A DNA stretch of 64,000 bases, taken from contig NZ_LR880474.1 in NCBI RefSeq assembly GCF_904066215.1, forward strand, positions 2,542,001 to 2,606,000. Reading direction: 5' to 3'. Position numbers and translations under genes: made by a program. Position 1 is the stretch's first letter, and the number at the start of each line of letters is the position of its first letter. Shown here one piece after another: positions 41,697 through 58,621 of the stretch. Source of the stretch: Microbacterium sp. Nx66. GTDB taxonomy: Bacteria > Actinomycetota > Actinomycetes > Actinomycetales > Microbacteriaceae. Under the pieces are notes generated by a model. It saw only the letters and a program-made list of their open reading frames with translations. It made no database searches and was not told the DNA's origin.

Positions 41697-41843
41697 CGAC
41701 CGCTCCCTTCCGCTCGATTGCTGGGAAGCGTTGACGAACTGCCCCAGCAATCGAGCACAGCAGAGCGGTGAGAATCCGCGTGATTCTGGAGAAGCCGCGT
41801 GCGGGGTCATAAGGGGTGGCGACCCGTCGGGGCTTATGACCCC
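41697..41843 (+). repeat. Three-hairpin structured element, copy 1
   Basis: Hairpin 1: GCTCGATTGCTGGG (41712-41725) with CCCAGCAATCGAGC (41743-41756); an outer CCGCTC/GAGCGG alternative also pairs. Hairpin 2: AGAATC/GATTCT. Hairpin 3: GGGGTCATAAG (41803-41813) with CTTATGACCCC (41833-41843). Begins CGACCGCTC like the other copies. It fills the 236-bp gap after the membrane protein, and no coding sequence is evident. Confidence 0.8.
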
Positions 41844-41919
41844 GAGCTAGATCGCGTAATAGCATGCACGTTGTTGAGCTCAGAGGAGTGGTCAGCGCGG
41901 AGTGCGATACGTTCGGGGC

Positions 41920-42144
41920 ATGGTGAAGCAGTTCGATGACCTCTCTTCGGCGCTCCGAGAGTTCAGGATGCCCATGGAGAACCACACCGCGATCTACCAG
42001 ATCAAGAACGTGGTCGGGGGATTCGCGCCCGGGATCAAGGTGCGCAAAGACCTGATCATCGCTCAGCGCCTCGACGGCAAGCCTGAGATCAGATCGGGTT
42101 GGGATCCGTTAGCGGCTTCATCTCTGAGGAGGAAGCCGCGGTAG
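41920..42144 (+). CDS. Hypothetical small protein
   Basis: 74 aa starting MVKQFDDLSSALREFRMPME, with HTAIYQIKNVVGGFAPGIKV. Located 76 bp after structured element copy 1. No domain recognised; moderately convincing coding pattern. Confidence 0.4.
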   Translation: MVKQFDDLSSALREFRMPMENHTAIYQIKNVVGGFAPGIKVRKDLIIAQRLDGKPEIRSGWDPLAASSLRRKPR

Positions 42145-42213
42145 CTGCGGGCGGGCGTTCGAAGCGCCCGAGCGATCGCGGTAACGGCTTGTGGCGTGTG
42201 GACCTGCCTGTGC

Positions 42214-43026
42214 TCAGCCGCGGTTGAGTCCGTGGGTGATGCTGTCCAGCGCTCGCTTGAAGTGACTCTCAGCGGCGTTGATATCCCGGAGTGGCGTCGA
42301 GGGGTCGAAGACCCGAAGTAGCGAGTATCGGAAGGTCGATGGATCGCGCTCCCTCAGCGCGACGTTGCCGCCGTGTCCGTTGGCGGCGTAGGTGCGCCAG
42401 CGCTGCAGGATATTCTCGGCGCCGTCTGCCTTGCCGACGTAGTGACGTCCGTCGCGAGTGTCGGTGATCAGATAAATGCCGACAATCGATGAGAGCGCCG
42501 TCTGCCAGGCGGCGTACCGGCGCTCCTTCACGACTGCCTTCAGCATCTCGTACGAGACGATCAGTCGGTCAAAGCCCGGGAACCGAGGAGGCTGAGCGTC
42601 CGCGACCTCGAGCACCGGGTATGTTGCTGCCGTAGCGCCGTAGACGCGCCATACCCGTCCAGCTTTCCACCCGATCACGAGTCGGCCGAGCAAGTCGCGC
42701 AAGTGATCAGTCTCCGCGAGGTCAAACTCGCGGAGCTCGCCGTCGTTGGAGATCTCCCCACGGTTTTCGACGACGCGCCAGAGGCGCCCACGATCACCCC
42801 CTTCGGGCACGAGCACAACCCACACTCGCGGAGGGGTCACGGGGAAGATCTGCGACTTAGCTGACTGACGGCGCGTGTACGCGAGAATCTCGTCGTCCGT
42901 GGAGCCTGCATGTACGCCGGCGAGGCGGCTCGATGTCGGCTCGGCGTTGTAGGCGTGCCTGATGACCAGCACGTCCTGGATAGGCAGAGACTCCGAGTCG
43001 AGGACCGTTCCGAGCGTCAAGGACAT
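42214..43026 (-). CDS. GIY-YIG domain protein
   Basis: 270 aa from MSLTLGTVLDSESLP. The C-terminal ~90 residues are a GIY-YIG nuclease fold: SSIVGIYLITDTRDGRHYVG with KADGAENILQRWRTYAANGH. The N-terminal ~170 residues are uncharacterised. In phage and mobile DNA such nucleases act in restriction or homing. Target unknown. Confidence 0.8.
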   Translation of the reverse strand: MSLTLGTVLDSESLPIQDVLVIRHAYNAEPTSSRLAGVHAGSTDDEILAYTRRQSAKSQIFPVTPPRVWVVLVPEGGDRGRLWRVVENRGEISNDGELREFDLAETDHLRDLLGRLVIGWKAGRVWRVYGATAATYPVLEVADAQPPRFPGFDRLIVSYEMLKAVVKERRYAAWQTALSSIVGIYLITDTRDGRHYVGKADGAENILQRWRTYAANGHGGNVALRERDPSTFRYSLLRVFDPSTPLRDINAAESHFKRALDSITHGLNRG

Positions 43027-43163
43027 GCATCCGAGACTATCGACCACGTGAGATGGGTTGCGTTACGACCCAGCGTCTGGCCAGTCGGCGAGAAAGACCG
43101 CACTGTTCTGGCCCTCGCAAGATACTGGACCTCTTTTCGCGGTCCGTTGAAACCTCGACTCGG

Positions 43164-43832
43164 ATGCAGTGGACTGACGCCATGCGATCTGCGATCCCAA
43201 TGCCCGATAACCCGTGGCCTCACGACATGACGATCACCGTCGAGGATCGCCCCCATGCGCTGCTCGAGCTGCTGTGGCTTCGAGAAGCTCACTCTCTGAA
43301 CCCGGACGGCGAAGACCTGCCGCCGCATCTGGTCCGCACGCCCGTCCCGGCCGCAACCGCGGTTTATCAGGCGACACGCGCTCGATGGTCGCGGGGATGG
43401 TCGGGAGTCTGGGACGAAGTCCTGGCACATGCCGGTACCGAGCCCGACCGAGCTCTGGTCGACAACGTCTTCAGCGCCGAGGCGAGCGACCCCGACCGTG
43501 CGAGGCTTCTTCGGCAGCTGACCGGACCGAGTGTGAGTGACCAGTTCGGCGCTGAGGTGTTCGATGACGCGACGTACCAGGAGTGGGACCGACTCGGTTT
43601 CGAATCCCACGTGGCATCACGACCGACGGTGCTGGCGAACAGCCCCGAGCGTCGGAGCGTGGCGGTGTTGGCCGACGCATGGCGACGGGGCCTGACCAAG
43701 GTGGTGACCGTGCCCTGTGTTGGAACGCACGTGAGGCAGATTGGACCGCACGCACTTCTCGTAACCGAAGAGGTGCGCGGCGACAGGGCAGCATACGAGA
43801 ACGCTCTCAGATCCTTTGCCCCTGCGGTGTAG
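43164..43832 (+). CDS. Hypothetical protein
   Basis: 222 aa from MQWTDAMRSAIPMPDNPWPH. Soluble, mixed alpha/beta, with LLELLWLREAHSLNPDGEDL. It ends just before the truncated IS481 copy. No family recognised. Divergent from the GIY-YIG gene. Confidence 0.6.
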   Translation: MQWTDAMRSAIPMPDNPWPHDMTITVEDRPHALLELLWLREAHSLNPDGEDLPPHLVRTPVPAATAVYQATRARWSRGWSGVWDEVLAHAGTEPDRALVDNVFSAEASDPDRARLLRQLTGPSVSDQFGAEVFDDATYQEWDRLGFESHVASRPTVLANSPERRSVAVLADAWRRGLTKVVTVPCVGTHVRQIGPHALLVTEEVRGDRAAYENALRSFAPAV

Positions 43833-43844
43833 CCGTACAGCTAG

Positions 43845-44020
43845 GTGTACTGATCGGGGACGTTGGTCAATCGAGACATGGGCGGTTGGTTCCCGCAAGC
43901 TGTGTGCGGGCGATGCTGGTTGTAGTGGTGGAGCCACCCGGACAACGCGTTCCGGCGTTCCTGCTCGCTGCGGTAGCAGCGGGCATAGGCCCACCCGTCG
44001 GTCATCGTGCGGTGGAACCG
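43845..44020 (-). pseudogene. IS481 transposase 3' fragment with terminal repeat
   Basis: Nearly identical to 46966-47141: same terminal repeat TGTACTGATCGGGGACGTTG, again next to CTAG (43841-43844), and the same C-terminal codons (NALSGWLHHYNQHRPHTACG). It breaks off at 44020, in the middle of the transposase. Left end of a decayed transposon copy. Confidence 0.9.
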
Positions 44021-44050
44021 GCGAGCTGGCGATAGGGAGAGGCGCAGCAG

Positions 44051-44538
44051 ATGACTGAACGACACACGTATGAGGCCACCGCGCGCCGCGACGGGCGCTG
44101 GTGGCTCGTGGAAGTGCCCGAGCTCGACACCGTCGGTCAGGCACGCAGTACCGCGAGGTCGAGGAGGTCGCCCGCGAGGTTATCGGGCTCTTCCTCGACG
44201 TCGAGCCCGACGCCTTCGACGTCAACGTCTCGATCGAGATCCCCGAGAACGCCCGCGCGGCGTGGGAGGAATCCAAGAAGCGCGAAGCACTAGCTCGCAC
44301 CGAGAGCGAAGCGGCCGCTGCCCTCGCTCGTCGCGCCATCGCCACCCTCCGCGCGGACGGCCTCACCTTCCGCGACGCCGGAGCCGTACTCGGCCTCTCC
44401 CCGCAGCGCGTCCAACAGCTCGCCGCAGACATTGCTGTGCACAAGGACGGGTCCTTCACTGCCAAATTCAAGGTCAAGGAACGCCGCGGAGCCAGCGCTG
44501 TGGAGTCGCATCGCCGTACTGGCGCAGCGAGCAGATAG
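44051..44538 (+). pseudogene. HicB-type antitoxin gene with single-base deletion
   Basis: The frame opens MTERHTYEATARRDGRWWLV then EVPELDTVGQAR, a HicB-like start. The natural continuation YREVEEVAREVIGLFLDVEP is in another frame. One extra G at about 44144 (GCACGGCAGTAC instead of GCACGCAGTAC) would restore VGQARQYREVEEVAREV. The rest includes a C-terminal HTH-like stretch FRDAGAVLGLSPQRVQQLA. No HicA toxin is nearby. Confidence 0.7.
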
Positions 44539-44551
44539 AGGAGTGGCACCG

Positions 44552-44995
44552 ATGGACGACCACTACATCGACATCGGCGATGGCGATACCTTCACCCTCG
44601 CGCCGGACCCTGCGCCGATGGTTCCGCAGCATCTGTTGAAGCCTTCGTCTGGTCGGTATCTGAGCCCGATGGAGCGGGCGACGATCATGGTCGCCGACCG
44701 TCAGGGGCAATCCGTCTGGTCGATCGCGGCGATGCTCGGCCGGGCCCCATCGACGATCAGTCGTGAGCTGCGGCGCAAGCGGCGGCACTGGATGCCGCGT
44801 TACCACGCCTGGCAGCCGCAGTTATGGGCCGAGTCCCGAACGATACGGCCGCAGCCGCGGAAGCTGGAGCAGAACGAGCGGTTACTGGACGCTGTGTGGG
44901 CGATCTGTCAGCTCGACATCGATGCGCAGGCCGTCACGCCCGACACCCTCCGTCAGGCCCTGTCCGAGCGAGCGCAACGGGTGGCCGCCCTGTAA
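44552..44995 (+). pseudogene. Chimeric ORF: IS30 transposase start joined to WYL-regulator end
   Basis: 147 codons, open and with a good GAGGAG site. The first ~110 residues are the IS30 HTH part (LSPMERATIMVADRQGQSVW, GRAPSTISRELRRKRR). From ~44885 it is the last ~35 residues of a WYL regulator (AVWAICQLDIDAQAVTPDTL). Sequence similar to 49395-49507 continues past the stop. A fusion of debris; expression possible but function doubtful. Confidence 0.75.
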
Positions 44996-45028
44996 CAGTC
45001 GCAACCGGGACGTATTCGGCACGTCGCG

Positions 45029-45736
45029 TCAGGAGACGCCGCTGATCCCATTGATGGTCGTCTGATCGACTCCGCGGTCGAGAAGTGAGCGGACCAGCTC
45101 CGGCCGACGCTCAGCCGCGCCGGCCGCCTCAGCGAGTTCGAGCATCCACATGAGGGCAGTCACGGTGTCTGCGTCGGTGTCACTGGACTTCGGTCGTCTC
45201 AGAGCGGAGTCGAGTGCTCGGAACGCCGCCCGCGCGTCCTCGCGGAAGTCGCGTAGTATGCGCGCACTGTCGAGGGCCTTCGCCAGCCCGACGAGATCAG
45301 GCGAGCCGCCATACTCGAGGGCACGAGGTTCGCCCCGCTGCACGAAGATGATGTTGTTGCCATCGGGATCCACGAGCGTGAATCGGGAGGCGCCAGGGCG
45401 CAGTCTGGTGATCCGCGGGCGCCCCATGGCCGGCACACGACCGAGCACTCGCTTCAGCGCCGCGGCGAAGTGAGCGTGGTACGGAACGACATCGTCCACC
45501 GCAACGAGACACGCGAAGTCCTCGCGATCAGGATCGGCGCCCTCGGGGCGGCGGGTGAAATGCACATCAAGGTTGCGCCAGGACAGCGCGAGGTAGGGGT
45601 AGGGCTTCGCCTGACGGTGGAGCAAAAGGAACCCCAAGTCGGTGTAGAACTCGACGGTCCGCTCGGCATCGTCGCTGGGAAGCATTGGCACCGCCAGCTC
45701 ATTGACGGGCAGGGTGATGCTGTCGGCTGTGGTCAT
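45029..45736 (-). CDS. VOC-family (glyoxalase/bleomycin resistance-like) protein
   Basis: 235 aa from MTTADSITLPVNELAVPMLP. The first ~125 residues are one VOC module (AERTVEFYTDLGFLLLHRQA, FTLVDPDGNNIIFVQRGEP with the metal-site Glu). The C-terminal ~100 residues are helical and partly ankyrin-like (ALMWMLELAEAAGAAERRPE). Could bind or modify a small hydrophobic compound. Convergent with the WYL-regulator fragment. Confidence 0.78.
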   Translation of the reverse strand: MTTADSITLPVNELAVPMLPSDDAERTVEFYTDLGFLLLHRQAKPYPYLALSWRNLDVHFTRRPEGADPDREDFACLVAVDDVVPYHAHFAAALKRVLGRVPAMGRPRITRLRPGASRFTLVDPDGNNIIFVQRGEPRALEYGGSPDLVGLAKALDSARILRDFREDARAAFRALDSALRRPKSSDTDADTVTALMWMLELAEAAGAAERRPELVRSLLDRGVDQTTINGISGVS

Positions 45737-45962
45737 GGGCAATCTCCTTCGGTGGAAGCTGCGACGGCATGAGCGAGTAGTCAACAATAGTGACGGGCCC
45801 CGACACGTGCGCCTCGTGTTCCGCGCCGGCGCCCGGTCGCCCCGGCGCGGAGCGCTACAGTCCTTTCGGGCAGGGCGATACCGTGCGGCTGCCGGGCGCC
45901 TTGAATGCGGGAAAGTTCATTTTGGTGAACGAGGGGCGACCTTCGGCCTAGCCTGTTGGCCA

Positions 45963-46965
45963 GTGAGCGCCGCAGGCAAGGGCCGCTACGTCGTCGGGAT
46001 CGCCGTCGCGATCCCCGCCGGCGTCGTCGCCAGCCTACTGAGCTTCGTCCTGTTCATCGCCTCCCCCAGCTGCGCCAGCAGCGGCGTCTCGGTCGACGGG
46101 ACGAACCTGCCCGCCGTCGACGGCTTCGACGCCGAACAGCTCGGCAACGCCGCGGCGATCGCCAACGCCGGCGCCGCGCTCGGCGTCAGCCAGCAGGGGC
46201 AGACCATCGCGATCATGACCGCGATCGGCGAATCCAGCCTCCACGTCCTCGACTACGGCGACCAGGCCGGCCCGACTCCCGCGGCCTGTTCCAGCAGCGC
46301 GACAGCTGGGGCAGCCTCGCTGACCGAATGGACCCCGCGAAGTCGGCCACGTTCTTCTACGAGCGGCTCCTGCAGGTCCCCAACTGGGAGACGCTCGAGC
46401 CGACCATCGCCGCGCACCGCGTCCAGATCAACGCCGACCCGTCCACTACGAGCGCTTCTACCCGGCCGCTCAGAAGATCATGGCGGCCTTCGGAGGATCG
46501 GTCTCGTCCTGCCAGGCCAGGCCCGCCGGCGTCGTGAACGCCCAAGGATGGGCGAAGCCCGCCGAGGGCCCACTCACAGACGGCTACGGCCCCCGAGAGA
46601 CCCTCTGCGGCCCTGGAGGCTGCTCAGGAGGCTTCCACTACGGCACCGACATCGGCGCCGCCTGCGACGCCCCCATCTACGCCGCCCGCGCCGGCACCGT
46701 CGTCTACGCCGCGCCCCTCGGCACCTACGGGCACTGGATCCTCATCGACCACGGCAACGGCCTCTCCAGCGGCTACGCGCACATGTTCGCTGATGGGGTC
46801 CTCGTGAAGGCCGGCGACACCGTGAAGGCCGGCCAGAACATCGGCAAGGTCGGCACCGATGGCGCATCCACCGGCTGCCACCTCCACTTCGAGCTCCGCG
46901 TCGACGGCCAGCGGGTCGACCCCGACCCGCTCCCCTACCTCGCCAACGTCGGGATCACCTTCTAG
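45963..46965 (+). pseudogene. Peptidoglycan hydrolase (M23 peptidase) gene with two frameshifts
   Basis: Starts at a GTG: a membrane helix (IAVAIPAGVVASLLSFVLFI), then a lytic-transglycosylase-like region AIMTAIGESSLHVLDYGD. The frame shifts near 46280 into DSRGLFQQRDSWGSLADRMD and again near 46443 into YERFYPAAQKIMAAF. The final frame is an M23 domain with FHYGTDIGAACDAP and GCHLHFELRVDG. This layout is that of conjugation-associated wall hydrolases of actinobacterial plasmids and ICEs. Two shifts make it inactive unless they are sequencing errors. Confidence 0.8.
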
Positions 46966-47948
46966 ATGTACTGATCGGGGACGTTGGTCAATCGAGACAT
47001 GGGCGGTTGGTTCCCGCAAGCTGTGTGCGGGCGATGCTGGTTGTAGTGGTGGAGCCACCCGGACAACGCGTTCCGGCGTTCCTGCTCGCTGCGGTAGCAG
47101 CGGGCATAGGCCCACCCGTCGGCCATCGTGCGGTGGAACCGCTCCACCTTGCCGTTCGTTCGCGGCCGATACGGGCGTGTTCGTTTCGGGACGATCGAGA
47201 GTGTCCCGCACGTATCGCGCCATAGGCCGGACCGGTACGCGCCGCCGTTGTCTGACAGCACCCGCTCGATGGTGACTCCGCGGCTGGCGAACCACGTCAC
47301 GGCGCGCTGCAATACGTCGACGGCAGTCACCGTTGATTCATCGTCTCTGATCTCCGTGCACGCCACTCGGGAGTGGTCATCGATAACGGTGTGCACGAAG
47401 GCATACCCGAGCTTCGGACCGCCGTACCGATTGCGCGGCTTGTCCGGGGTGGCGGCGCGGTTCTTCTCGCCTTGCTGGCGGCCGACGTAGCGCCAGCCTC
47501 CACCGTCGGGAACGTTACCGATCTTCTTCACGTCTACGCGCACCAGCGATCCTGGGTGAGGGTGCCCGTACCTGCGGATCGGCTCTCCGGTCGCGCGGTC
47601 GACGTAGGAGAGCCTATTCAAGCGCGCGCTGGTCAGGATGCGGTGCACGGTTGACGGCGCAATTCCAAGCCGCGCAGCGAGCTGGATCGGACCCTCCCGC
47701 AATCTCATTCGGAGACTCAGGCACCGCTTCGTCACCTTCTGGCTCGTCTTGCCGGGTGAGTTTCTCGGCCGCGAGGATCGATCCTGCATCGTCTCGCCGG
47801 CACGGTAGCGATCGGCCCACCGCTTGACGGTAGGCCAGGCGACCTGGAAACGCGCGGCAACTTCACTGATCGGCCAGCCATCATCAACGACCAGGCGAGC
47901 AACTTTCAATCGGTGACGGGGCGTCAGCGCCGCGTTCGCGTGGGGCAC
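46962..47948 (-). CDS. IS481-family transposase
   Basis: About 328 aa from a GTG at 47948. N-terminal HTHs are HRLKVARLVVDDGWPISEVA and QLAARLGIAPSTVHRILT. The DDE core has LVRVDVKKIG, FVHTVIDDHSRVACTE, VLSDNGGAY and the Glu in GKVERFHRTMADG. Its stop codon is the TAG of the flanking CTAG target duplication. Confidence 0.92.
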   Translation of the reverse strand: MPHANAALTPRHRLKVARLVVDDGWPISEVAARFQVAWPTVKRWADRYRAGETMQDRSSRPRNSPGKTSQKVTKRCLSLRMRLREGPIQLAARLGIAPSTVHRILTSARLNRLSYVDRATGEPIRRYGHPHPGSLVRVDVKKIGNVPDGGGWRYVGRQQGEKNRAATPDKPRNRYGGPKLGYAFVHTVIDDHSRVACTEIRDDESTVTAVDVLQRAVTWFASRGVTIERVLSDNGGAYRSGLWRDTCGTLSIVPKRTRPYRPRTNGKVERFHRTMADGWAYARCYRSEQERRNALSGWLHHYNQHRPHTACGNQPPMSRLTNVPDQYI

Positions 47949-47968
47949 TTTTCTCCTTCCGTTGTTAA

Positions 47969-47998
47969 GACGGCCAGCGGCGTTCGCCACTGGCCGTC
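47969..47998 (-). terminator. Hairpin between ridA and transposase
   Basis: GACGGCCAG (47969-47977) pairs with CTGGCCGTC (47990-47998), a 9-bp perfect stem with a 12-nt loop, 24 bp after the ridA stop. Confidence 0.65.
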
Positions 47999-48021
47999 TC
48001 TTGGTGAGGGTGCTGGTGCCG

Positions 48022-48417
48022 CTACGCGACGGCTGTTCCTTCGAGTTCGATCAGCTGGCCCGGGATAGCAAGGCGGGTGACCTCAAGCATCGTGGTGGTC
48101 GGCGCGACTCCAGCAGCTCCGAGCCTCCCCGCGAGCACCCCGTAGTGCGGGAATAGTGCGTCGACGTCGGTGGTGTACACGTTGAGGCGGACCAGGTTGG
48201 ACAGAGACATCTCGGCCCCCGTGAGGACTGCTTCGAGGTTGTCGACCGCCAGAGCGAGTTGTGCGGCCATGTCGCCGTCGTGTTCGGGTCGGCCGGCCGC
48301 ACTCATCGCGGTCTGACCCGAGATGTACAGCGTGCGCGTCTCCCCAGATACGACCTCGCCCTGGTTGAAACCCATCTCCTGAGACCACGTCACCGGGTTG
48401 ACTGCTGTCCGTTCCAT
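48022..48417 (-). CDS. RidA-family protein
   Basis: 131 aa from the ATG at 48417. Family blocks are TLYISGQTAMSAAGRPEHDG, LAVDNLEAVLTGAEMSLSNL, RLNVYTTDVDALF and the end TTTMLEVTRLAIPGQLIELE. The usual arginine that binds the imine carboxylate seems replaced, so it may belong to a non-deaminase RidA subgroup. Divergent from the WYL regulator; the pair is the cargo of the transposon. Confidence 0.85.
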   Translation of the reverse strand: MERTAVNPVTWSQEMGFNQGEVVSGETRTLYISGQTAMSAAGRPEHDGDMAAQLALAVDNLEAVLTGAEMSLSNLVRLNVYTTDVDALFPHYGVLAGRLGAAGVAPTTTMLEVTRLAIPGQLIELEGTAVA

Positions 48418-48541
48418 TGCCACTCCATTCGGTTCTCCCGCCGACGTCCGTCGGCGTACGAGCGCCATGACCGACGCTCGAATACAACTCTCTCGACGAA
48501 TCACGACACCCTGTGTCGTGTATTTCGGCAAGGATGTCCGT

Positions 48542-49507
48542 ATGCGTGCAGATCGGCTTGTGTCGCTGGTGCTCCTCCTGCGCCAGAGGGGCCGCATGAC
48601 AGCGGACGAGATCTCGGCAGAGTTGGAGGTGTCCACGCGAACGGTGCTGCGCGACATGGATGCCCTCTCAACCGCAGGCGTCCCGATCTACGTCGACCGA
48701 GGCCGCCACGGCGGCTTCTCGCTGCTGGCCGGGTTCCGAACCGAATTGACCGGCCTCAACCACGACGAAGCGCTTGCATTACTTACCGCCGGCTCGGGAC
48801 GCGGTGAGAAGATTTTCGGGCTCAGCGCACCACTCGCCTCCGCTATGCGCAAAGTCGTCGACGCATTACCTGAGGCGCACCGAGAGAAGGTGGGCGATGC
48901 AGCCCGACGATTTCTCGTGGAACCCGAGATCGACCTGCTTTCACGGCGGCTGATCTCTGAGGACATGGCCGAGGGGGTGATGAACGACGTCCGCCGAGCC
49001 GTGCTCTCCGGCAGAAAACTCCGCTTCGACTACGCGCCCCCCGACAAACCACCACGCTCGCACACTGTCGATCCGATCGGCCTCGTCACCGTCCGCGGCC
49101 GCATCTATCTCCTCGCCGCGAAGTCAGGCGAGGACCGAACCTACCGAGTGTCGCGGATGCTGAGCGCCGAACAGCTTCCCCAGGCAGCGGATCGTCTCAC
49201 CCAAGTCGACCTCGACCGTATCTGGGCTGAACGGAGCGCGCAGTTCCTTTCCGAGAACCACCTACCCGTGATCGTCAGAGTCCGATCGTCACGACGAGAA
49301 GAACTGCTGAATACCGCACGCGCGCTCCGGGTCGAAGAACCAGAACCCGACGGCTGGCTTCGCCTCGACGTGGCATTCGAGGACCTACGCCACGCGGTCT
49401 GGGCGATATGGCAGCTCGACATCGATGCGCAAGTCATCTCTCCAGAAACCCTTCGCGAGGCTCTCACCGAACGAGCTCGGCAAGTGTCCGCCCTCTATCA
49501 GTCGTGA
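48542..49507 (+). CDS. WYL-domain transcriptional regulator
   Basis: 321 aa. N-terminal DeoR-type HTH (MTADEISAELEVSTRTVLRD), WYL domain in the middle (LRFDYAPPDKPPRSHTVDPI, GRIYLLAAKSG) and a WCX C-terminal extension. It is divergent from ridA (125-bp gap) and probably regulates it. The C-terminal part recurs as a fragment at 44890. Confidence 0.9.
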   Translation: MRADRLVSLVLLLRQRGRMTADEISAELEVSTRTVLRDMDALSTAGVPIYVDRGRHGGFSLLAGFRTELTGLNHDEALALLTAGSGRGEKIFGLSAPLASAMRKVVDALPEAHREKVGDAARRFLVEPEIDLLSRRLISEDMAEGVMNDVRRAVLSGRKLRFDYAPPDKPPRSHTVDPIGLVTVRGRIYLLAAKSGEDRTYRVSRMLSAEQLPQAADRLTQVDLDRIWAERSAQFLSENHLPVIVRVRSSRREELLNTARALRVEEPEPDGWLRLDVAFEDLRHAVWAIWQLDIDAQVISPETLREALTERARQVSALYQS

Positions 49508-49666: not shown

Positions 49667-49678
49667 GGATGTCGACGA

Positions 49679-50836: not shown

Positions 50837-50981
50837 CGACCGCTCATGCGCTTGATTGCTGGGGGGCTTCGTCGGAGTGCCCCAGCAATCGAGCACTCGG
50901 GAGCGCATGAAAACCGCGGAATCATGCGGAAGTTCATCACGGGGTCATAAGCACTCACGGCACCGCCGGGCTTATGACCCC
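50837..50981 (+). repeat. Three-hairpin structured element, copy 2
   Basis: Hairpin 1 outer TCATGCGCT (50844-50852) with AGCGCATGA (50902-50910); inner TTGATTGCTGGGG with CCCCAGCAATCGA (50880-50892). Hairpin 2: CCGC/GCGG. Hairpin 3: GGGGTCATAAGC (50941-50952) with GCTTATGACCCC (50970-50981). It lies in the 507-bp gap 50585-51091; the rest of that gap shows no gene. Confidence 0.8.
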
Positions 50982-51091
50982 GCGCGTCCGACCTCGTCAG
51001 TAGGCCCGCGACATGGGACAGGCGCAGCACTTCGAGAAGAGCTCGAACTGGAAGGCGAAGAGTATCTTCGTGGCTACGCCATAATGACGCC

Positions 51092-51757
51092 ATGGGTTTC
51101 GGTGCAGATGTCGAGCGAATCCGCCTCGAGCGGGCTGAGGCGGAGTCTCGGGAGGGCAATGAGGCACGGGCCTTCATTGCCGAACTCGAGGAGTTGTGGC
51201 GCGACGCGCACGAGTATTGGTCGTCGAAGACGAAGCGATTCACAGCGGACGAGGTCGGATGGATACTGCACGGAAGTAGGTATGTGCCGGTCGGCGGCGA
51301 CGAGCTCGTACCTCTCCCCATTTTTCCGCAGCGTGTGGTGAAGGGTGCTCGCACGCGCACTGATTTTGATCGGGGGTACGCGCCCGAAACGATCTCAGCG
51401 CCTGGCTTCGTGGTCCTGGACGGGATCGCGATCTGCGACCCGGGACAGCTTCGTCCCATGGCTCCTCGGATCGATCTCGGCATGGCTCGCCAGCACGCAG
51501 AACAGGTGTTCCGTACGGGCGGCTTCTTCGATCTGCCTATCCACGAACTTCCTACGCCATCCCCGTTTGCGGAGTCGGCTCAGCAGGTCGCTTTTGCCGA
51601 ATTTACGACCGGGACGCACGTGATCTTCGGGCGGGGGGCTGAGTCTTCGATCGATGCGTACGTCCTGGCACCCTCCGCCAGTGGATGGGCGCACAAGGGC
51701 ACCTTGAGAAATCTGGTTGCAGGAGCCCTCGCAGACGCGATCGACAAGCACGGCTGA
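51092..51757 (+). CDS. Hypothetical protein
   Basis: 221 aa from MGFGADVERIRLERAEAESR. A helical N-terminus is followed by a mixed domain with FVVLDGIAICDPGQLRPMAP and TGTHVIFGRGAESSIDAYVL. It begins 110 bp after structured element copy 2. No family recognised. Confidence 0.55.
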   Translation: MGFGADVERIRLERAEAESREGNEARAFIAELEELWRDAHEYWSSKTKRFTADEVGWILHGSRYVPVGGDELVPLPIFPQRVVKGARTRTDFDRGYAPETISAPGFVVLDGIAICDPGQLRPMAPRIDLGMARQHAEQVFRTGGFFDLPIHELPTPSPFAESAQQVAFAEFTTGTHVIFGRGAESSIDAYVLAPSASGWAHKGTLRNLVAGALADAIDKHG

Positions 51758-51907
51758 ACGAAGCCATCGCTTCGCGCGAGCGGTGCTGGAGCCGAAGGAT
51801 CGTCGATGAAGCCGGACGAGCGAGCTCAAGCTGAAGCCCGGTCATTCACGGGAGAAGTCGGTCGAGATGCGAGCTGCAGTAGGGGCGCTCGTCGCGCGGC
51901 CGCCGCG

Positions 51908-52072
51908 TCACGAGCTCTGCGGTTGAGGGGAGTTGATGTCGCCGCATGTCCAGCACTGCCAGAGGTATCCCGGTTCGACTCGAATCCAATCCATCGAGCG
52001 GTCACACCGCGAACAGAGCTCCCGGTCGGTGGGAGGCTCAGGGTCCGGGGAGGCGTACACGTGCGGGACCAT
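51908..52072 (-). CDS. Small zinc-ribbon protein
   Basis: 54 aa: MVPHVYASPDPEPPTDREL then CSRCDRSMDWIRVEPGYLWQ and CWTCGDINSPQ. Two CxxC pairs ~20 residues apart form a zinc ribbon, probably for DNA or protein contact. Only the ATG at 52072 is available; no strong ribosome site. It stops 71 bp before reaching the divergent debris around 51830. Confidence 0.5.
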   Translation of the reverse strand: MVPHVYASPDPEPPTDRELCSRCDRSMDWIRVEPGYLWQCWTCGDINSPQPQSS

Positions 52073-52143
52073 GCTCGAACTGTAGACGCCTGGGATCTCG
52101 CGCCCGATATATCCTCCACAGGCGGATCCGCCAGGAGCGAGGG

Positions 52144-53223
52144 CTAGGTCAGCTCAGTGGGACGCTCGAACACGCGAGTTCGCATGACGGCGCCGACTCC
52201 GAGGAAGCCGGCGAGGTGGACGACGTCGTTGCCGCCCATGACGCGGTTCAGCGTGAACTTCCTCGGGAACTGCTCGAGGAGCGGGTTCTCGCCTGCGAAG
52301 AAGCGCTCGGTCTTCATGGCGAAGATGCGGGTGGTGTCCAGGGCACGGAAGCTGTCGATCGAGAGGATCGATTCGTCCACGGCACCCCAGATGAGACGGT
52401 CGAACTCCTTCTGGTGGGTCCAGTGCTGCCGGATGCGCTTCGCGATGCCCGTCGACGAGTTCGCGACGCCGACGTACACCTGGGCGTACTCGTCGAGCAC
52501 CATGATGTATAGCCCGGGAACGCCGTCCCACTTCGTCAGGTCGGTGACTTCTCGCATGCCGCGCCGGGTGGCGACAGCCGACTGCAGTGCGCTCTCGAAC
52601 TCCTCGCGATCGAGGGAGGCGAAGTGGGCCATGTTCAGGTCGAAGTTCAGCAGCGCGTCCGCGCGCTGCGCTTCGCACCAGGCGTCCGAACGGATGCGGT
52701 GCTCCGCGTCGTCGTAGTCCTCGTCGACCGCGTCCCAGAACGCGGGGTTGTCCTCGCGGTACATGCGCGACAGGGACGAGCGCTTGTTGATCCGGGCGTA
52801 TGTCTCGCGAGAGATTCGGAGGCCGAGGCCTCGGGTGCTGCGCACGGTCGTGCCGAAGTGCGTGGCGCTCTCCGTTGAGCCAGGTCGTGGTGCGCCCTTG
52901 CGGGGGATCGCGACGGGGACACCCCAGACCTTGCGGGCGAGTCTGGTCTGCCAAGGGTGCCAGACGAGCACGTAACCTGAGTCGGTCAGCGCGTGCAGCG
53001 TCGCGTTCGCATCCGAGCCGATCGAGACGTTGAAGATCCGTGCCGGGTCAAACTCGAGGTGCTCGCCCGCGGGGATGAGACCGGAGCTGGCGAGCTCATG
53101 CGGGTCTGCGTCGAGTACGAGGTAACCGTCTTCAGAGAGATCCCGCCGCAGCTCCTGCGCAGCCTGCACGGTCGGCGCCCACACGAGGGTTTCGCGCGTG
53201 GTTGCAGTGATCTCGAGGTGCAT
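52144..53223 (-). CDS. GIY-YIG domain protein, second copy type
   Basis: 359 aa. The GIY-YIG fold lies at ~residues 228-275: VPGLYIMVLDEYAQVYVGVA and GIAKRIRQHWTHQKEF. The N-terminal ~220 residues contain an uncharacterised domain with HALTDSGYVLVWHPWQTRLA. Not obviously a close paralogue of the gene at 42214. Probably a nuclease of mobile-DNA origin. Confidence 0.72.
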   Translation of the reverse strand: MHLEITATTRETLVWAPTVQAAQELRRDLSEDGYLVLDADPHELASSGLIPAGEHLEFDPARIFNVSIGSDANATLHALTDSGYVLVWHPWQTRLARKVWGVPVAIPRKGAPRPGSTESATHFGTTVRSTRGLGLRISRETYARINKRSSLSRMYREDNPAFWDAVDEDYDDAEHRIRSDAWCEAQRADALLNFDLNMAHFASLDREEFESALQSAVATRRGMREVTDLTKWDGVPGLYIMVLDEYAQVYVGVANSSTGIAKRIRQHWTHQKEFDRLIWGAVDESILSIDSFRALDTTRIFAMKTERFFAGENPLLEQFPRKFTLNRVMGGNDVVHLAGFLGVGAVMRTRVFERPTELT

Positions 53224-53244
53224 GCGAGTCGCTGTCTTCGACCT

Positions 53245-53904
53245 TCAGAGAGTGACCCAGCCGACAAGCCAGCTGAGGACTAACCAGACGCTGGCGACCA
53301 GTCCGATGGTTCCCCAGGTGATTGCTGCGAAACGTCTTGGCGTACCGATCTTGGACCGAAGACCCTGGTGGATCGACTTGATGCCGAAGACTATCCCGAG
53401 GATCCCCAGGATGATCGCGAAGAAGTACCCTACTCCTGTCCAGTAGATCGCCGCCTGCGGGCCGAGGTTGCGATCGTTACTACGGGCGAGCGCGATGGCG
53501 AGGATGAGGGTGAGCCCGACCATGACGAGGCTCGCCGCCGGCCAGACAACGGCATGCACTGCGAGGCGAAGATCGAGTGGTCGGAGGCTGGATGCTGCGT
53601 CAGTGGATGTCGGTCGTGCTGTGTCGACGTGATGCACGACGTGCGGCGCAGCGAGACGCGGTGATGTGGTGAGGTCTCTGGTCAGGGCATGAGTGGTCTC
53701 AGGGACCACGGCTGGCTCTGCTGCCCGGGCGCCAGCTGCCCACTGGTTGTAGTAGTGCGCGGTCAGTCCTGGCGACGCCGCGACGGTGTCTGCCGTTGTG
53801 GCAGAGATGTTCATGCCGAGGAGAGGTCTCAGCTCGGGATCGATGAGCATCCGAGCGAAGACCTCTGGACTGACGTTGTCAGGCGTGAGAGACATGACGC
53901 TCAT
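53245..53904 (-). CDS. Membrane protein with DUF4190-like C-terminus
   Basis: 219 aa. A soluble N-terminal ~115 residues (VSPEVFARMLIDPELRPLLG resembles variant leucine-rich-repeat openings) is followed by three membrane helices: VWPAASLVMVGLTLILAIAL, YWTGVGYFFAIILGILGIVF and TWGTIGLVASVWLVLSWLVG. Unknown role. 21 bp separate its stop from the start of the GIY-YIG gene on the same strand. Confidence 0.7.
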   Translation of the reverse strand: MSVMSLTPDNVSPEVFARMLIDPELRPLLGMNISATTADTVAASPGLTAHYYNQWAAGARAAEPAVVPETTHALTRDLTTSPRLAAPHVVHHVDTARPTSTDAASSLRPLDLRLAVHAVVWPAASLVMVGLTLILAIALARSNDRNLGPQAAIYWTGVGYFFAIILGILGIVFGIKSIHQGLRSKIGTPRRFAAITWGTIGLVASVWLVLSWLVGWVTL

Positions 53905-53942
53905 TCTGGCAGTAGAGCTGTACGGATCGCGGCGATGATTGG

Positions 53943-54638
53943 TCAGCTGACCGGCTCCAGCAGAGTCGGGTCGGTCGGATCGACGGTGCGGCTGTTGCTG
54001 ATCTTGCGGTCGACGATGTGCTCACGGATCGTGGAGGCGACGTCGCTCGAGGTGTGCTCGAGCATCGCCAGGGTCTCAGCCTTGCGGTCGCCGGTGAGTT
54101 TCTCCGGTGTCAGCCAGGCGTCCCAGGTGTCGGGCGTGAGGAATGCGGGCATCCGGTCGTGCACCTCGCCGCTGGCATCGCGTGCTTCGCGGGTGATGAC
54201 GACGAAGCAGCGGGACTTCTCACCATTGGGTAGTTCCATGGACCAGGTCAGTCCCGCGGCCGAGAGCAGTCCATCGCCATGGAGAAAATGCGGTGTCTTC
54301 GGAATCTTCTCGCCGGTCCACTCGAAGTAGCCCCGCATCGGAACAATGCACCTGGCGGCCGAGAACGCCGGCGCCCAGAAGCCCTGCGCAAGCTTCTCCA
54401 TGCGCGCGTTGATGATCGGGGCGCCCTTGGGGCGGTTCGCTGGCTTCTGCCAGTCCCAGCGCACGAGCTCGAGGATGCGTGCCTCGCCGCGGTCGCGGAC
54501 GATCGGTGTACCCTGGGTCGGGGCGATCGAGTATGCGCCGGCCCACGTCTTCCACCAGTCCTCGGGCTTGCCGCCCTCCGCGACATACTCTCGGATCAGC
54601 TCGTCAGTCTTGGCGTCGTTCGCGAATCGGCCGCACAT
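53943..54638 (-). CDS. yedK: SOS response-associated peptidase (SRAP / YedK / HMCES type)
   Basis: 231 aa. It covalently protects abasic sites in single-stranded DNA. The nucleophile is Cys2 (MCGRF). Asn is in INARMEKL, Glu in GYFEWTG and His in VHDRMPAFL. Start 54638 is fixed by the need for Cys at position 2. Confidence 0.93.
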   Translation of the reverse strand: MCGRFANDAKTDELIREYVAEGGKPEDWWKTWAGAYSIAPTQGTPIVRDRGEARILELVRWDWQKPANRPKGAPIINARMEKLAQGFWAPAFSAARCIVPMRGYFEWTGEKIPKTPHFLHGDGLLSAAGLTWSMELPNGEKSRCFVVITREARDASGEVHDRMPAFLTPDTWDAWLTPEKLTGDRKAETLAMLEHTSSDVASTIREHIVDRKISNSRTVDPTDPTLLEPVS

Positions 54639-54673
54639 ACGAGCGACTCTACGCGGGGTTGGCATAGGGCGGG

Positions 54674-54907
54674 CTAGATATCGTCGGACGCGGTAACTGC
54701 GTTCCCCCATACCCAGCAACGGAAGACCCGGTCGCCTGCCCGGAACTCAATGCCAGCGGCAGTGGGCGTTGAGCGAGCGAGTTTGGCGTCTACACGTATC
54801 GCCTCGGGACCAAAGCGGACCCATGCTCGCACCCGTCGGTACGGCTGCGGGTACATCGTCAGGGGCTGTTCCCGAAGTGCCAGTTCCCGATCGGAGAGCG
54901 ACTGCAA
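54674..54907 (-). CDS. Conserved hypothetical protein, possibly N-terminally short
   Basis: 77 aa, with MYPQPYRRVRAWVRFGPEAI and GIEFRAGDRVFRCWVWGNAV. This matches a small Microbacteriaceae-type family as I recall it, in which ~40 more N-terminal residues precede this block, so it may be truncated. It lies upstream of yedK on the same strand. Confidence 0.6.
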   Translation of the reverse strand: MQSLSDRELALREQPLTMYPQPYRRVRAWVRFGPEAIRVDAKLARSTPTAAGIEFRAGDRVFRCWVWGNAVTASDDI

Positions 54908-55097
54908 CGGTCCGACTCGAGCCGCCGCCAGTACGGCCTAGTGCTGAGCTTGCATGTCGTAGTAGGGGGCTAACCTTTTACTCGTCCCCATCCGGCGTCC
55001 TTTCTCCCGCCGAGAGTACGATACCAACATTCGAAGATTTGTTCTATACTGGCTGCCTCGCGTCTGCGCTATCCACTCATAAATGAGCAAATTTGTG

Positions 55098-55126
55098 TTG
55101 ACGCGAGCGCTCGTGAACGTTACGTT
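55098..55126 (+). promoter_or_regulatory. Promoter for the polymerase-mob operon
   Basis: TTGACG (55098-55103), 17-nt spacer, TACGTT (55121-55126). The spacer begins with the 10-bp palindrome CGAGCGCTCG (55104-55113), an ideal repressor site. It lies in the 451-bp gap 54908-55358, which is unusually AT-rich around 55010-55100 and contains no convincing gene. The leader to the first gene would be ~225 nt. Confidence 0.55.
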
Positions 55127-55358
55127 TATCTCGGTTCGAAAAAGTTTCGGGCTGCACCAGACGGAACCGGGGATGGCCGCCCGCCCGTCTTATAGAAGAG
55201 GCCAAAGCCCAAGGCGAATGCGATCACCAGTGCATGCTTGAACCTTGGGTCAACGCTCTGGTGAACAACGGATCGTAAAGGCGCGATCCTGGCGGGGTGG
55301 CACTGGCAGGTGTCCCGTGAGACATGCAGGTGCTCCTTCTCGAAAGAGAGGAGCGGGC

Positions 55359-55664
55359 TTGCCTGCTCACGCCGTAACCCAATCCCGGCCACTACTCACC
55401 CTTCAGGAAGCTGCCAACGCTCGACGGATCGGATATTCGACACTTCGCAAGTGGATCGCTGACGGCACGCTGCCAGCGGAACGAATCGGCCGACGAATCT
55501 ACGTGCAGTCCGCACATCTCGATGCGATGGCTACCACTGCCATCGGTCGCCCGCGTGCAGCCGAAGAGATTGACTCCGCGGTCGCGCGTGTCGTCGCGGC
55601 TGCTCCCCGCCTCACCGCGGAGCAGCGCGAGCGGCTCGCCGTGATCATCGGGGGTGCCTCGTGA
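55359..55664 (+). CDS. Excisionase/MerR-type HTH_17 protein
   Basis: 101 aa from a TTG at 55359, chosen for GAGAGGAG 7 nt upstream. The HTH_17 core is LLTLQEAANARRIGYSTLRK with WIADGTLPAERIGRRIYVQS. The C-terminal helix is RLTAEQRERLAVIIGG. First gene of the plasmid-like operon; it overlaps the polymerase ORF by 4 bp (GTGA). Probably a replication or copy-number regulator or excision factor. Confidence 0.78.
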   Translation: MPAHAVTQSRPLLTLQEAANARRIGYSTLRKWIADGTLPAERIGRRIYVQSAHLDAMATTAIGRPRAAEEIDSAVARVVAAAPRLTAEQRERLAVIIGGAS

Positions 55665-58621
55665 ACACCCCCTTTGACACAGGCTGGAAAGCGAAAGAGC
55701 TGACGGACGCAGGCGGTCGGTTCGAGGTACTAAGCCGCCGGGTGCCGCGCCAAGTTCCGACCGCTCAGATGCGCTCAATTGGCGGGGGTCTTCAGACAAG
55801 ACCCCCAGCAATCGAGCGCAAGCGAGCGCATGAAACCCTTGATTTTCCGCGGATCCCGCGGCGGGGTCATAAGCCGCCTATGGGTCCCCGTGCTTATGAC
55901 CCCGTGTCCGCCGGCCGCGCGAGCTCCGGTGTTCTCGCCACCGCGGGCGCTAACTTCGGCGATCTTGTCTCGGTCCGTTCGATGGGGACTGAGCGCCGGG
56001 CGATCATCGTGGGCTTCGACACGGAGTTCACGACCCTCGGAGGGGTGCGGAACGTTGACAGTTGGCAGTTCGCGACGCCCGATCTGAGTGATCCGACGCT
56101 GATGGTTCAGGTCGTCATCCTGCCGCTCAACGGGCGACGCGTCGGTATGCACACTGCCCTCTGGGAGGTCGTTCGAGCTGCGTCTCTGTGGCAGTCGCCT
56201 CTGGTTCGGGACGGTGTGGACGACCGTGGCGTGCGCCGAAGTACTGTTCTTGAGCGCGCCGGCGCCGGGCCTTCCGGGGACGCCGCTCGCGCCTGGGCCG
56301 CGGATCCTCGAGATTGGGAGGCGCGCGCGTCTGCGCTCGCACCCTGGCGGGTTCCCATCGTGCTCGCCTGTCACTTCGGCGCGGCAGACCTCACGACATT
56401 CCGGGGCGGCGGTCGGGTCACGGATCACCTCACGCGGCTGACGTCCGCTGCGGGCGGGCTCGTCACGCTTCTGCCCTTCCGCCTTCAGAACGGCGATCAG
56501 CGAGGCGACGACTACGGCTGGTGGCGGTCGCTGAGCGTCACTGTGCGCGACACGATGACCCACGCTCCGGCAGGGCAGAGGACACTCGCGGCCATTGGCG
56601 CGGCCGCTGGCATCGAGAAGCTCGAAGTGCCCGGCGACTGGATCTCGCGGATGACTGAGTACCGCCAGCATCATCTCAGCGAATTTCTCGACTACGGCGT
56701 GAACGACGCGGAGATCGTCGTGGAGTTCCTTGCGCGAATCTGGGGCGAAGGCGTGCTCCCTCCCGTAACTCTCGGCGGTGGCGCCGCCGCGTCCCTTGTT
56801 GCCTCGGGGTCGGACTACTTCGGGGTTACTACGCCAAAAGAGTTCAGGCTCGCATTCTCGGGGCTCGTGGAGGAGGAAGCGGTGGATGTGGTCGAGGAAG
56901 GCGACGAGCTGACGTTTTACGCGAAGCGGGGTCGGGCGCCTGTCGATGGCGCCGCGGCTCAGCTCAGCAAAGCCTTCGCTTCTGCGTATCACGGGGGCTT
57001 GAACGCCTGTCCCTCCCCGGGGTACTACCCAATCCGCACCATCGATATTGATGCGAAGAACGCGTACCCCACAGCCATGGCGCTTGTACCCGATCTCGAC
57101 TGGGAGACGGGGTGCATCGAGAACGTCATCCATGAACGGCAGCTGACTCCCGATGACGTGCCGGAGCCGACCTCATCATTCGTCGGGTTTGTGTCGTTCG
57201 ACTTCCCCGAGAGCGTCACCTATCCGACGCTCCCGATCGTGGGGGACGGAACACTCATTTATCCGCGCACGAGCGAAGGGGTAGCAGGGACCTGGGTCTG
57301 CGGTCCTGAACTCTGGCTCGCTCTCAAGCTCGGCGCGACCGTCTTCTGCCAGATCGGGTTCGCCGGGCGAGCCGCTCGCCGCTTCGATGGCTCGTTGAGC
57401 CTTTCGTTGCGTCATGGTGTGCGTCAGCTGATTGAGGACCGAGCGACCGCCAAACGTCTCTTCGGGAAGGGGTCGCTTGAAGAGCAGACACTAAAGACGA
57501 GTGTCAACACGATCTACGGGAAGACCGCCCAGGACGTCGCTGAACAGCGCTCGTGGGACGCTTACAAGCAGGAAATGGACAACGTGGGTGGGTCCGCGAT
57601 CTCGAGCCCTTCCCACGCTGCGACCACCACCAGCCTCGTCCGGGCCCAGCTGTTGGCAACGATGAATCAGATCGCTGAACGAGGCGGTCAGGTGTTCTCG
57701 GTCACGACAGATGGCTTTATCACCGATTGGACAGTCAGTGATGTCGAGGCACTTGATCTCTACGGTCTCGCTGGCCACCTCAGGGAAGCGCGGACAGCGC
57801 TCACTGGTGACCCGACCATCTGGGAGGCCAAGCACGAACAAGACGACCTGGTGAACTTCACCACCCGCGGTAACGTCTCGCTCCTTCCGAACGGAGTATG
57901 TGCGCACAACGGGCTGAAGCGTTCCGACGGTATCGCCGCCGATAGTCGCGAGGATCGTGAGGAGCTTCTGGCGAACGTCGTCACTCGCGAAGGCCGAGTC
58001 GAGAACGCGTACCGTCGATTTCCGAGTTTCCAGGAGCTTTCGAAAAAAGAACGACGCAAGGACTTCATTCCATCCACCGTCGAACGAGCCGTCAGCATGG
58101 ACTTCGATCTCAAGCGTCGGCCTTTGATGGCATCGATGGTTCCGGAGGCAGTGCCTCTGCCGGACGGATCGACGCACGAGATGGCGACCTTCCCGACGGC
58201 TCCATGGGAAAGCATCGAGGATTGCCTTCGCGCGCGAGCCATCGCGCGAGAGATTGCGAACACTGGATGCCTGCGGATCGTCGATGAATGGAGGGAGTGG
58301 CACGTCCGGTTCGCCCATGGGAGGGGCCACAGGATAGTCACCCCTCGCCGCGCAGTGTTGATGTCGATCGTCATGGCGCACCGACAGGGCATCGTCACGA
58401 TTCCAACGCTGGCGGCTCGCGAGCTCAGCGTCGCCGAGCGTCTCGAGTGGCTCGCGCGATGGGGGCTCGGCACGGTGAGCGAAGGTGACTGGAAGAACGC
58501 TCGTCGACCGGAGCGAACGTCTCAGATGCTGCCTCTCTCAGAGCTTGAGCCTTGGCTCTCGCAGATGATGACCTCGGGCATCGGCAGTCTCAACCTGCCG
58601 GCCTCGGGAGGTGCGTCATGA
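55661..58621 (+). CDS. Plasmid-type family B DNA polymerase
   Basis: 986 aa from a GTG overlapping the HTH stop; ATG at 55982 is the conservative alternative. The exonuclease motif is VGFDTEFTT (~residue 120). Polymerase motif A is IDIDAKNAYPTAM (~461), motif B KTSVNTIYGK (~611), and motif C reads VTTDGFIT (~680) where DTD is standard, so the first Asp is Thr. This belongs to the DNA_pol_B_2 group of plasmid and organelle polymerases. Structured element copy 3 occupies codons ~33-81. Relaxase and HTH partners suggest replication of a mobilizable element. Confidence 0.85.
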   Translation: MNTPFDTGWKAKELTDAGGRFEVLSRRVPRQVPTAQMRSIGGGLQTRPPAIERKRAHETLDFPRIPRRGHKPPMGPRAYDPVSAGRASSGVLATAGANFGDLVSVRSMGTERRAIIVGFDTEFTTLGGVRNVDSWQFATPDLSDPTLMVQVVILPLNGRRVGMHTALWEVVRAASLWQSPLVRDGVDDRGVRRSTVLERAGAGPSGDAARAWAADPRDWEARASALAPWRVPIVLACHFGAADLTTFRGGGRVTDHLTRLTSAAGGLVTLLPFRLQNGDQRGDDYGWWRSLSVTVRDTMTHAPAGQRTLAAIGAAAGIEKLEVPGDWISRMTEYRQHHLSEFLDYGVNDAEIVVEFLARIWGEGVLPPVTLGGGAAASLVASGSDYFGVTTPKEFRLAFSGLVEEEAVDVVEEGDELTFYAKRGRAPVDGAAAQLSKAFASAYHGGLNACPSPGYYPIRTIDIDAKNAYPTAMALVPDLDWETGCIENVIHERQLTPDDVPEPTSSFVGFVSFDFPESVTYPTLPIVGDGTLIYPRTSEGVAGTWVCGPELWLALKLGATVFCQIGFAGRAARRFDGSLSLSLRHGVRQLIEDRATAKRLFGKGSLEEQTLKTSVNTIYGKTAQDVAEQRSWDAYKQEMDNVGGSAISSPSHAATTTSLVRAQLLATMNQIAERGGQVFSVTTDGFITDWTVSDVEALDLYGLAGHLREARTALTGDPTIWEAKHEQDDLVNFTTRGNVSLLPNGVCAHNGLKRSDGIAADSREDREELLANVVTREGRVENAYRRFPSFQELSKKERRKDFIPSTVERAVSMDFDLKRRPLMASMVPEAVPLPDGSTHEMATFPTAPWESIEDCLRARAIAREIANTGCLRIVDEWREWHVRFAHGRGHRIVTPRRAVLMSIVMAHRQGIVTIPTLAARELSVAERLEWLARWGLGTVSEGDWKNARRPERTSQMLPLSELEPWLSQMMTSGIGSLNLPASGGAS
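55758..55903 (+). repeat. Three-hairpin structured element, copy 3 (inside polymerase ORF)
   Basis: Hairpin 1 outer ATGCGCTC (55769-55776) with GAGCGCAT (55824-55831); inner GGGGGTCTT (55784-55792) with AAGACCCCC (55798-55806). Hairpin 2: CCGCGG-ATC-CCGCGG. Hairpin 3: GGGGTCATAAGC (55863-55874) with GCTTATGACCCC (55892-55903). It is readable without stops in the polymerase frame. Confidence 0.8.

Follow-up and report, generated by a model that had tools for sequence, protein, structure and literature searches.

Pipolins are mobile elements that carry a primer-independent family-B DNA polymerase (piPolB); where their replication starts, and what keeps such a polymerase from initiating at random, are to our knowledge open questions. 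PMC9710591 lists Staphylococcus epidermidis among the hosts of plasmidic pipolins and describes relaxases and resolvases as carried by them; PMC7544198 gives a motif C without its first aspartate as a trait of primer-independent family-B polymerases. The word ‘hairpin’ is absent from the two pipolin papers searched, PMC9710591 and PMC7385651, as are ‘origin of replication’ and ‘inverted repeat’ from PMC7385651; an earlier description may exist elsewhere. Here we describe a ∼147 bp element that occurs three times, always on the + strand and 147–149 nucleotides (nt) long, in a 64,000-nt stretch of Microbacterium sp. Nx66 (contig NZ_LR880474.1, positions 2,542,001 to 2,606,000; hereafter the window). 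The evidence gives good support to a DNA site that works in cis, belongs to a pipolin-like mobile element and comprises two DNA hairpins (H1 and H3) in the polymerase gene. Whether the polymerase also starts replication at this site is, in our judgement, evenly poised.

Folded start sites, and start sites within genes, are known from other replicons. The three-hairpin complementary-strand origin of phage G4 and the single-strand initiation (ssi) sites of RSF1010 are, like this element, ∼140-nt stretches of folded single-stranded DNA (ssDNA) at which a priming enzyme starts. Those sites serve primases, whereas the presumed user here is a self-priming polymerase with the site in its own gene. 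The lambda origin inside O and the phiX174 origin inside A also lie within the coding sequence of a replication protein; the present site differs in consisting of paired hairpins whose pairing is kept more than their sequence, across several phyla. Single-stranded hairpins are further found at mobile DNA, as in the ends of the insertion sequences (ISs) IS200/IS605, repetitive extragenic palindromic (REP) sequences and attC sites, but here no cognate transposase or integrase is seen, there are only three copies, and one is fixed in a gene.

Polymerase relatives about 30–86% identical, from Actinobacteria, Clostridia and staphylococcal plasmids, have one or both of H1 and H3 near the polymerase start at the thresholds used. 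When genome contigs were scanned once with 35 aligned homologues, 71 loci were obtained (loci are numbered with the prefix L). In most actinobacterial loci both hairpins lie 5′ of the domain start, the H3 loop bearing CCCCTATGGGG or a variant, and clostridial homologues (∼33% identity) have the same layout in less GC-rich sequence. The stem core of H3 is often GG(N)GTCA, frequently with TATGGG in the loop of polymerase-gene copies, and the H1 stems differ wholly between groups (GCTCGATTGCTCCGGGCAC in Sinomonas, GTGTGACAGTT in Kocuria, each with its complement). We counted hairpins scoring at least 22, with one scoring for all, at −280 to −60 from the polymerase domain start, an interval picked after the loci had been inspected, in 27 actinobacterial loci (the window included) and 29 others, mostly from Firmicutes and including two from Coriobacteria (L102, L107). 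At least one hairpin is present in 25 of the 27 and 25 of the 29, compared with 6–13 and 2–5 in five control intervals of the polymerase part; two or more are present in 18 and 7, compared with 0–2 and 0. Lowering the threshold to 20 raises the latter figure to 19 of 29, a value that comes without control intervals. The profile of best hairpin scores has a single peak at this place, and shuffled sequence has none.

Several further loci (L163, L164, L202, L073, L200 and ten distant ones) were examined once the pattern was known. Both hairpins are present in all three staphylococcal plasmids with a complete 5′ end (pSE-12228-03, p3GD01 and pHD104-2_2, the last with H3 arms GGGGGTCAT/ATGACCCCC); this count leaves out L165 and L201, where an IS lies beside a shortened polymerase gene. 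L073, a 42% relative from the same family, has both hairpins 5′ of the conserved N-terminal motif instead of after it, as well as two further hairpins at threshold, and in a Rhizobiales locus a hairpin resembling H3 and containing GTATGGG precedes the ORF (open reading frame). A covariance-model search was proposed in the preliminary description of this DNA. Built from nine close sequences, a model matched the window, L074–L077, L082, L085, L088 and L095 on the coding strand at E < 0.05, and thus reached beyond its own nine to L088 and L085 (E 5e-4) and L095 (0.02), and weakly, in the right place, to L105 and L109; most of the distant loci were missed. The polymerase was found in 2 of 398 genomes of the family (this one and that of L073), and the H3 pattern in 1 of 299, again this one. 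E. coli pipolins fall outside the compared set: the search returned no match to them, and no enterobacterial plasmid is among the matches listed.

Selection acts on the nucleic acid itself, because synonymous change collapses at the hairpins and TATGGG is read in three frames. Between the window and loci L082 and L074, respectively, the proportion of synonymous differences (pS) drops from 0.60 and 0.68 in codons 1–32 to 0.13 and 0.20 within the element; it is 0.68 and 0.65 3′ of the element, and 0.62 and 0.60 over the initial 60 codons of the polymerase part. In a sliding analysis, pS at H3 falls to 0.00 in the window's group and to 0.01 in the Kocuria group, which also reaches 0.17 at H1; the Arthrobacter/Sinomonas group falls to 0.14 at H3, with 0.24 at another position elsewhere and no clear dip at H1. 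Three groups thus have a dip at H3, and two have one at H1. In the form searched, the loop motif of H3 occurs in 31 of 56 loci: 20 in the frame that reads PMG, ten in a second frame and one (L098) in a disrupted frame. The ten comprise L125 (TATGGG, read PLW) and nine clostridial loci (TATGC, read PLC), and L125 and L094 have near-identical DNA at the H3 loop in different reading frames. In the third frame, two staphylococcal plasmids and L073 read TATGGG as PYG. Pairing itself was measured in an alignment of nine sequences, where 94.0% of cells pair compared with 90.7% in shuffles, and 12 cells are doubly changed compared with 4.9 (0 of 500 shuffles reach either value); slid partners pair in 37–44%. 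The suggestion that selection keeps a folded or palindromic nucleic acid is supported well past the evidence on which it was first made.

The three copies in the window are real, with boundaries within 2 nt of those first proposed. Each starts with CGACCGCTC and ends in GACCCCG plus one base. GGGGTCATAAG occurs six times in the window, every time exactly, compared with 0.37 expected when up to one mismatch is permitted. Across the 3.46-Mb genome, an exact-pattern search found the three copies and nothing else, and the covariance model (150 of 729 first-look candidates scored) gave nine matches, all at these copies, six of them being the same places on the minus strand. Every copy folds better than 200 of 200 dinucleotide shuffles, both as RNA (z −5.2 to −7.8) and as ssDNA (z −6.4 to −7.8). 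The compensatory base changes emphasized in the preliminary description are thin evidence when drawn from the three copies alone: the covariation term from RNAalifold is +2.34, and changes on both sides affect 5 of 49 pairs, four of these in the weak middle helix, while the H3 stem is nearly invariant. Differences reported in the outer stem of H1 are in part a shift of pairing register, CGCTC/GAGCG being unchanged between copies. It is the comparison with hairpins in other genera, where pairing is kept, that makes the structural evidence strong. Of the three-hairpin layout first drawn, H1 and H3 recur in relatives; the middle hairpin can be traced in all three, though at differing positions, and unlike H1 and H3 it was not found as a fixed part of the relatives.

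Copy 3 spans about codons 33–82 of the polymerase ORF, a position that the preliminary description missed, together with the pipolin-like setting of all three copies. The N-terminal part 5′ of copy 3 is conserved as protein (GW..HEI.D...FQVLVRR) and evolves as coding sequence, with a nonsynonymous to synonymous rate ratio (Ka/Ks) of 0.16–0.20, and in 22 of the 25 loci examined, the window included, an open frame extends 128 codons or more 5′ of the domain start (exceptions L083, L095 and L098). Judged from these sequence features, the element in copy 3 is most likely translated. Nonetheless, the polymerase frame need not cross the hairpins, because L095 (Gordonia hydrophobica) keeps H1 and H3 at 9822–9924 despite a stop codon within H3.

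The 986-aa (amino acid) polymerase had no match in a Pfam search. Its PHROG match is DNA polymerase (E 2.3e-6), and its AlphaFold model (mean predicted local distance difference test score, pLDDT, 90) has phi29 DNA polymerase as best PDB match (E 1.8e-12). Motif C reads SVTTDG, without the first aspartate, and TTDG is likewise present in the Actinobacillus, Solimonas, Trichococcus, Rhizobiales and Ruminococcus relatives inspected. A homologue (30% identity, E 5e-37) lies on S. epidermidis plasmid pSE-12228-03, which we take to be one of the pipolins in the 2017 piPolB description. By motif, modelled fold and homology, the enzyme is a predicted family-B polymerase of the piPolB branch. The ∼36.8–62 kb region around it also carries IS30 and IS481 transposases, a SRAP protein and an HTH_17 protein, as well as a MobV-type relaxase and a serine resolvase, two kinds of gene ascribed to plasmidic pipolins (PMC9710591). 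We call the region pipolin-like because of the polymerase fold, motif C, the pSE-12228-03 homologue and the presence of a relaxase and a resolvase; the copies would accordingly belong to a pipolin-like mobile region whose polymerase resembles the primer-independent type. The locus departs from described pipolins in its hairpin element with two stand-alone copies, and no tyrosine recombinase or integrase was seen among the ORFs scanned, which are part of those in the window.

Table 1. Copies of the element and neighbouring genes, in window coordinates
Feature	Position	Strand	Details
Stand-alone copy 1	41697..41845	+	H1 41712–41756, H3 41802–41844; directly 3′ of the stop of ORF 40778–41683
Stand-alone copy 2	50837..50983	+	H1 50848–50896, H3 50938–50984
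Copy 3, embedded in 5′ coding part of polymerase ORF	55758..55905	+	H1 55770–55820, H3 55862–55904, loop CGCCTATGGG
Family-B DNA polymerase resembling piPolB, 986 aa	55661..58621	+	Motif C TTDG; domain start for searches 55982
HTH_17 (excisionase/MerR-like) gene, directly 5′ of polymerase	55245..55664	+	
MobV-type relaxase	58827..60038	+	Passes the cut-off of Pfam Mob_Pre; falls short of that of NCBIfam MobV
Serine resolvase	38905..39504	+	
UzuA-family protein (GIY-YIG domain), 3′ of copy 1	42214..43047	-	Faces copy 1
UzuA-family protein, 3′ of copy 2	52144..53223	-	Faces copy 2

Searches of the flanks yielded no clean empty site that would fix the ends of the mobile element. Diverged inverted repeats flank the region (35770–35870 with 62223–62323, 80% complementary; 36432–36529 with 61565–61662, 71%); their first arm lies inside a DDE transposase ORF, and they may be old boundaries. 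Inverted repeats of 27 nt (93%) at 36773–36799 and 39810–39836 surround the IS30 transposase and the resolvase and may be the ends of a 3-kb transposon. A 180-nt direct repeat (43841–44020 and 46962–47141) is 99% identical; since the IS481 transposase gene ends in the second copy, the first appears to be what is left of an IS. Tandem 39-nt repeats with a 13-nt sub-period lie at 20011–20205.

Mismatches within the stems bear on whether the element works as DNA or as RNA. Across 82 hairpins the stems hold 951 Watson–Crick pairs, 19 G.T and 21 A.C. Ten tRNA genes from the same loci have 14 G.T and no A.C (Fisher 3e-4; the pairs come from ARAGORN, which itself disfavours A.C), and 81 terminator-like hairpins of the same loci, found by a separate search with the element's pair scores, have 48 and 14 (Fisher 3e-3). 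The count takes in every hairpin of score at least 22 in the interval, some perhaps neither H1 nor H3, and omits near-duplicates (L080, L093, L098), too-short loci and any hairpin in which at least two other mismatches occur; counted more loosely, there are 36 G.T and 38 A.C. Since functional RNA stems should retain G.U and lose A.C, and these do not, a DNA palindrome or hairpin is favoured. The pattern is strand-symmetric, as expected of DNA, although the numbers are small and coding constraint may blur them.

The same counts weigh on an RNA element. On that reading the hairpins would work within the mRNA of the polymerase, for instance as an operator through which the enzyme binds its own message and regulates itself, and the stand-alone copies would yield RNAs that serve as decoys or regulators. 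Phage T4 gp43 is such a polymerase, bound to an operator in its own mRNA. Copy 3 does lie in the 5′ part of the mRNA, every copy folds well as RNA, and all are on the coding strand. However, the tolerance of G.U and avoidance of A.C expected of a cis-regulatory RNA are not seen, and Rfam has no match at gathering score except two tRNAs (one relative gave microRNA-like matches, all sub-threshold). We thus consider an RNA element unlikely. Among the roles first proposed for the element, a replication site fits best and a cis-regulatory RNA is disfavoured by the mismatches; the statement that no named family fits is true for Rfam, and a known RNA family is accordingly set aside.

Strand-symmetric mismatches would also suit a double-stranded operator, in which the H1 and H3 palindromes are bound by a dimeric regulator such as HTH_17. 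This protein would control the polymerase gene, or the extra copies would titrate it. An HTH_17 homologue lies upstream in 17 of 26 actinobacterial loci (L074–L098, L125), and some H1 are near-perfect palindromes with 3-nt centres. In the Firmicutes loci, however, the hairpins persist and the HTH gene has no match by tblastn, the H3 centres of about 15 to >30 nt fit pairing better than a rigid dimer site, and the site lies within a coding region. An operator therefore seems as improbable to us as an RNA element.

A transfer site, either an origin of transfer (oriT) or a single-strand conversion origin used after relaxase-mediated mobilization, draws support from the MobV relaxase gene 3 kb downstream, the single orientation of all copies and the relaxases of the staphylococcal plasmids. 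Yet the relaxase type changes (MobV here, MOBP on pSE-12228-03) while the hairpins stay, and they also stay in L099–L132, where a MobV query found no match (other relaxase types were not searched there). This role appears a shade less probable than either of the preceding two. As a separate observation, small hairpins at 58700–58840, at or just 5′ of the MobV gene and listed also for L074 and L082, are a candidate oriT.

Outside any polymerase ORF lie copies 1 and 2 and, in Microbacteriaceae bacterium PS02344, a further stand-alone copy (L082:4242–4391). They are alike in a middle segment, CCGCG..AT....GGAAG, which is imperfect in copy 1. The L082 copy is syntenic with copy 2, so a stand-alone copy has persisted since the two elements diverged. 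All three are followed by a UzuA-type gene on the opposite strand that faces them, identified by PADLOC for copies 1 and 2 and by 68% identity to 52144–53223 in L082. The genome has three UzuA (Uzume defence) genes, the two in Table 1 beside stand-alone copies and one at C1:624144–625055. That arrangement is what would favour a recombination or cargo-boundary site at which defence cargo is exchanged, but this is very improbable, given that the HTH gene and the N-terminal coding part, which lie 5′ of copy 3, show no disturbance, that no element lies in the stretches inspected around UzuA genes in six further genomes of the family (one of these matches being weak) or around a second UzuA of this genome, and that no recombinase was seen in all loci. 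A link between the element and UzuA is for the same reason not upheld.

An IS end, a miniature inverted-repeat transposable element or, as first suggested, a very small mobile element is unsupported: the 3.46-Mb genome has only three copies and no cognate transposase, and one copy lies inside a gene where relatives also have hairpins. Viral relatives were sought and discarded. Phage sequences gave no match to copy 1, polymerase scans found no viral relative, and no companion hairpin was seen around the H3 pattern in the 15 viral contigs that have it, or around CCCCAGCAATCGAGC in the 47 that have that sequence. Plasmid sequences gave no DNA match to 55700–58621. An unrelated 49-nt palindromic stretch (GGTCATAAG...CTTATGACC, GATCCC-flanked) occurs in 11 of those 15 contigs (L012, L013, L015, L017–L024) and resembles a small palindromic repeat.

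We return to a DNA site at which the element's polymerase starts replication. The hairpins would act when the stretch is single-stranded or extruded, and H1 and H3 would mark a defined start for the polymerase encoded by the same gene, either as a replication origin or as a single-strand initiation site. The polymerase itself or a host factor is the likely user, because the polymerase alone among the window's genes is common to all loci, a commonality that comes from how the loci were chosen, since they were found with it. The two stand-alone copies would be additional initiation sites on the same strand. A site within the gene would couple replication to an intact polymerase gene, and one may speculate that the H3 loop motif serves as a start template. 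The gene lists of three staphylococcal plasmids (∼8–9 kb; 8/8, 6/7 and 8/8 features) contain no other named replication protein; hypothetical proteins remain.

Several observations weigh against an origin. On pSE-12228-03 the detrended GC skew has its extremes at 3633 and 4882, not at 455–573, though this test is weak because all 8 annotated genes are on one strand. Two of the five covariation measures from the nine-sequence alignment are unexceptional: 6 pairs are changed on both sides compared with 3.6 in shuffles (reached by 28 of 500), and there are 13 further pair types compared with 13.0 (reached by 351 of 500). The stand-alone copies lack the TATGGG loop. When 26 actinobacterial loci were searched by blastn, with flanks that did not exceed 10 kb and in several cases were shorter, a second full copy was found in one, L082; the model found one in one of five relatives' genomes, again that of L082. 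Six of 56 loci have no hairpin at threshold (L083, L087, L104, L107, L123 and L132); in L083 and L087 the 5′ end of the polymerase gene is broken or truncated. In Fusobacterium plasmid pSB006B (L200) the two hairpins precede the ORF. Among ten more distant loci, the interval from −400 to +700 of the ORF start holds some hairpin in five and none in the other five. The covariance model matches none of the three staphylococcal loci, and because it does not reach most distant cases, these rest on hairpins and position. L083 is itself a rearranged locus, with a piece resembling the 3′ part of H3, inverted, at 8984–9015, ∼1 kb 5′ of the shortened polymerase gene.

We tentatively propose, at a confidence just short of even, that H1–H3 is the replication origin of pipolins, ancient, preserved in its pairing across host phyla and multiplied into stand-alone origins in some elements. 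The element is a concrete candidate for where pipolins begin replication and for how a primer-independent polymerase avoids random starts. A conserved site of this kind may also serve as a pipolin marker and offer a route to a minimal piPolB replicon. It is, moreover, a clear case of nucleic-acid structure held inside coding sequence by synonymous constraint, across reading frames.

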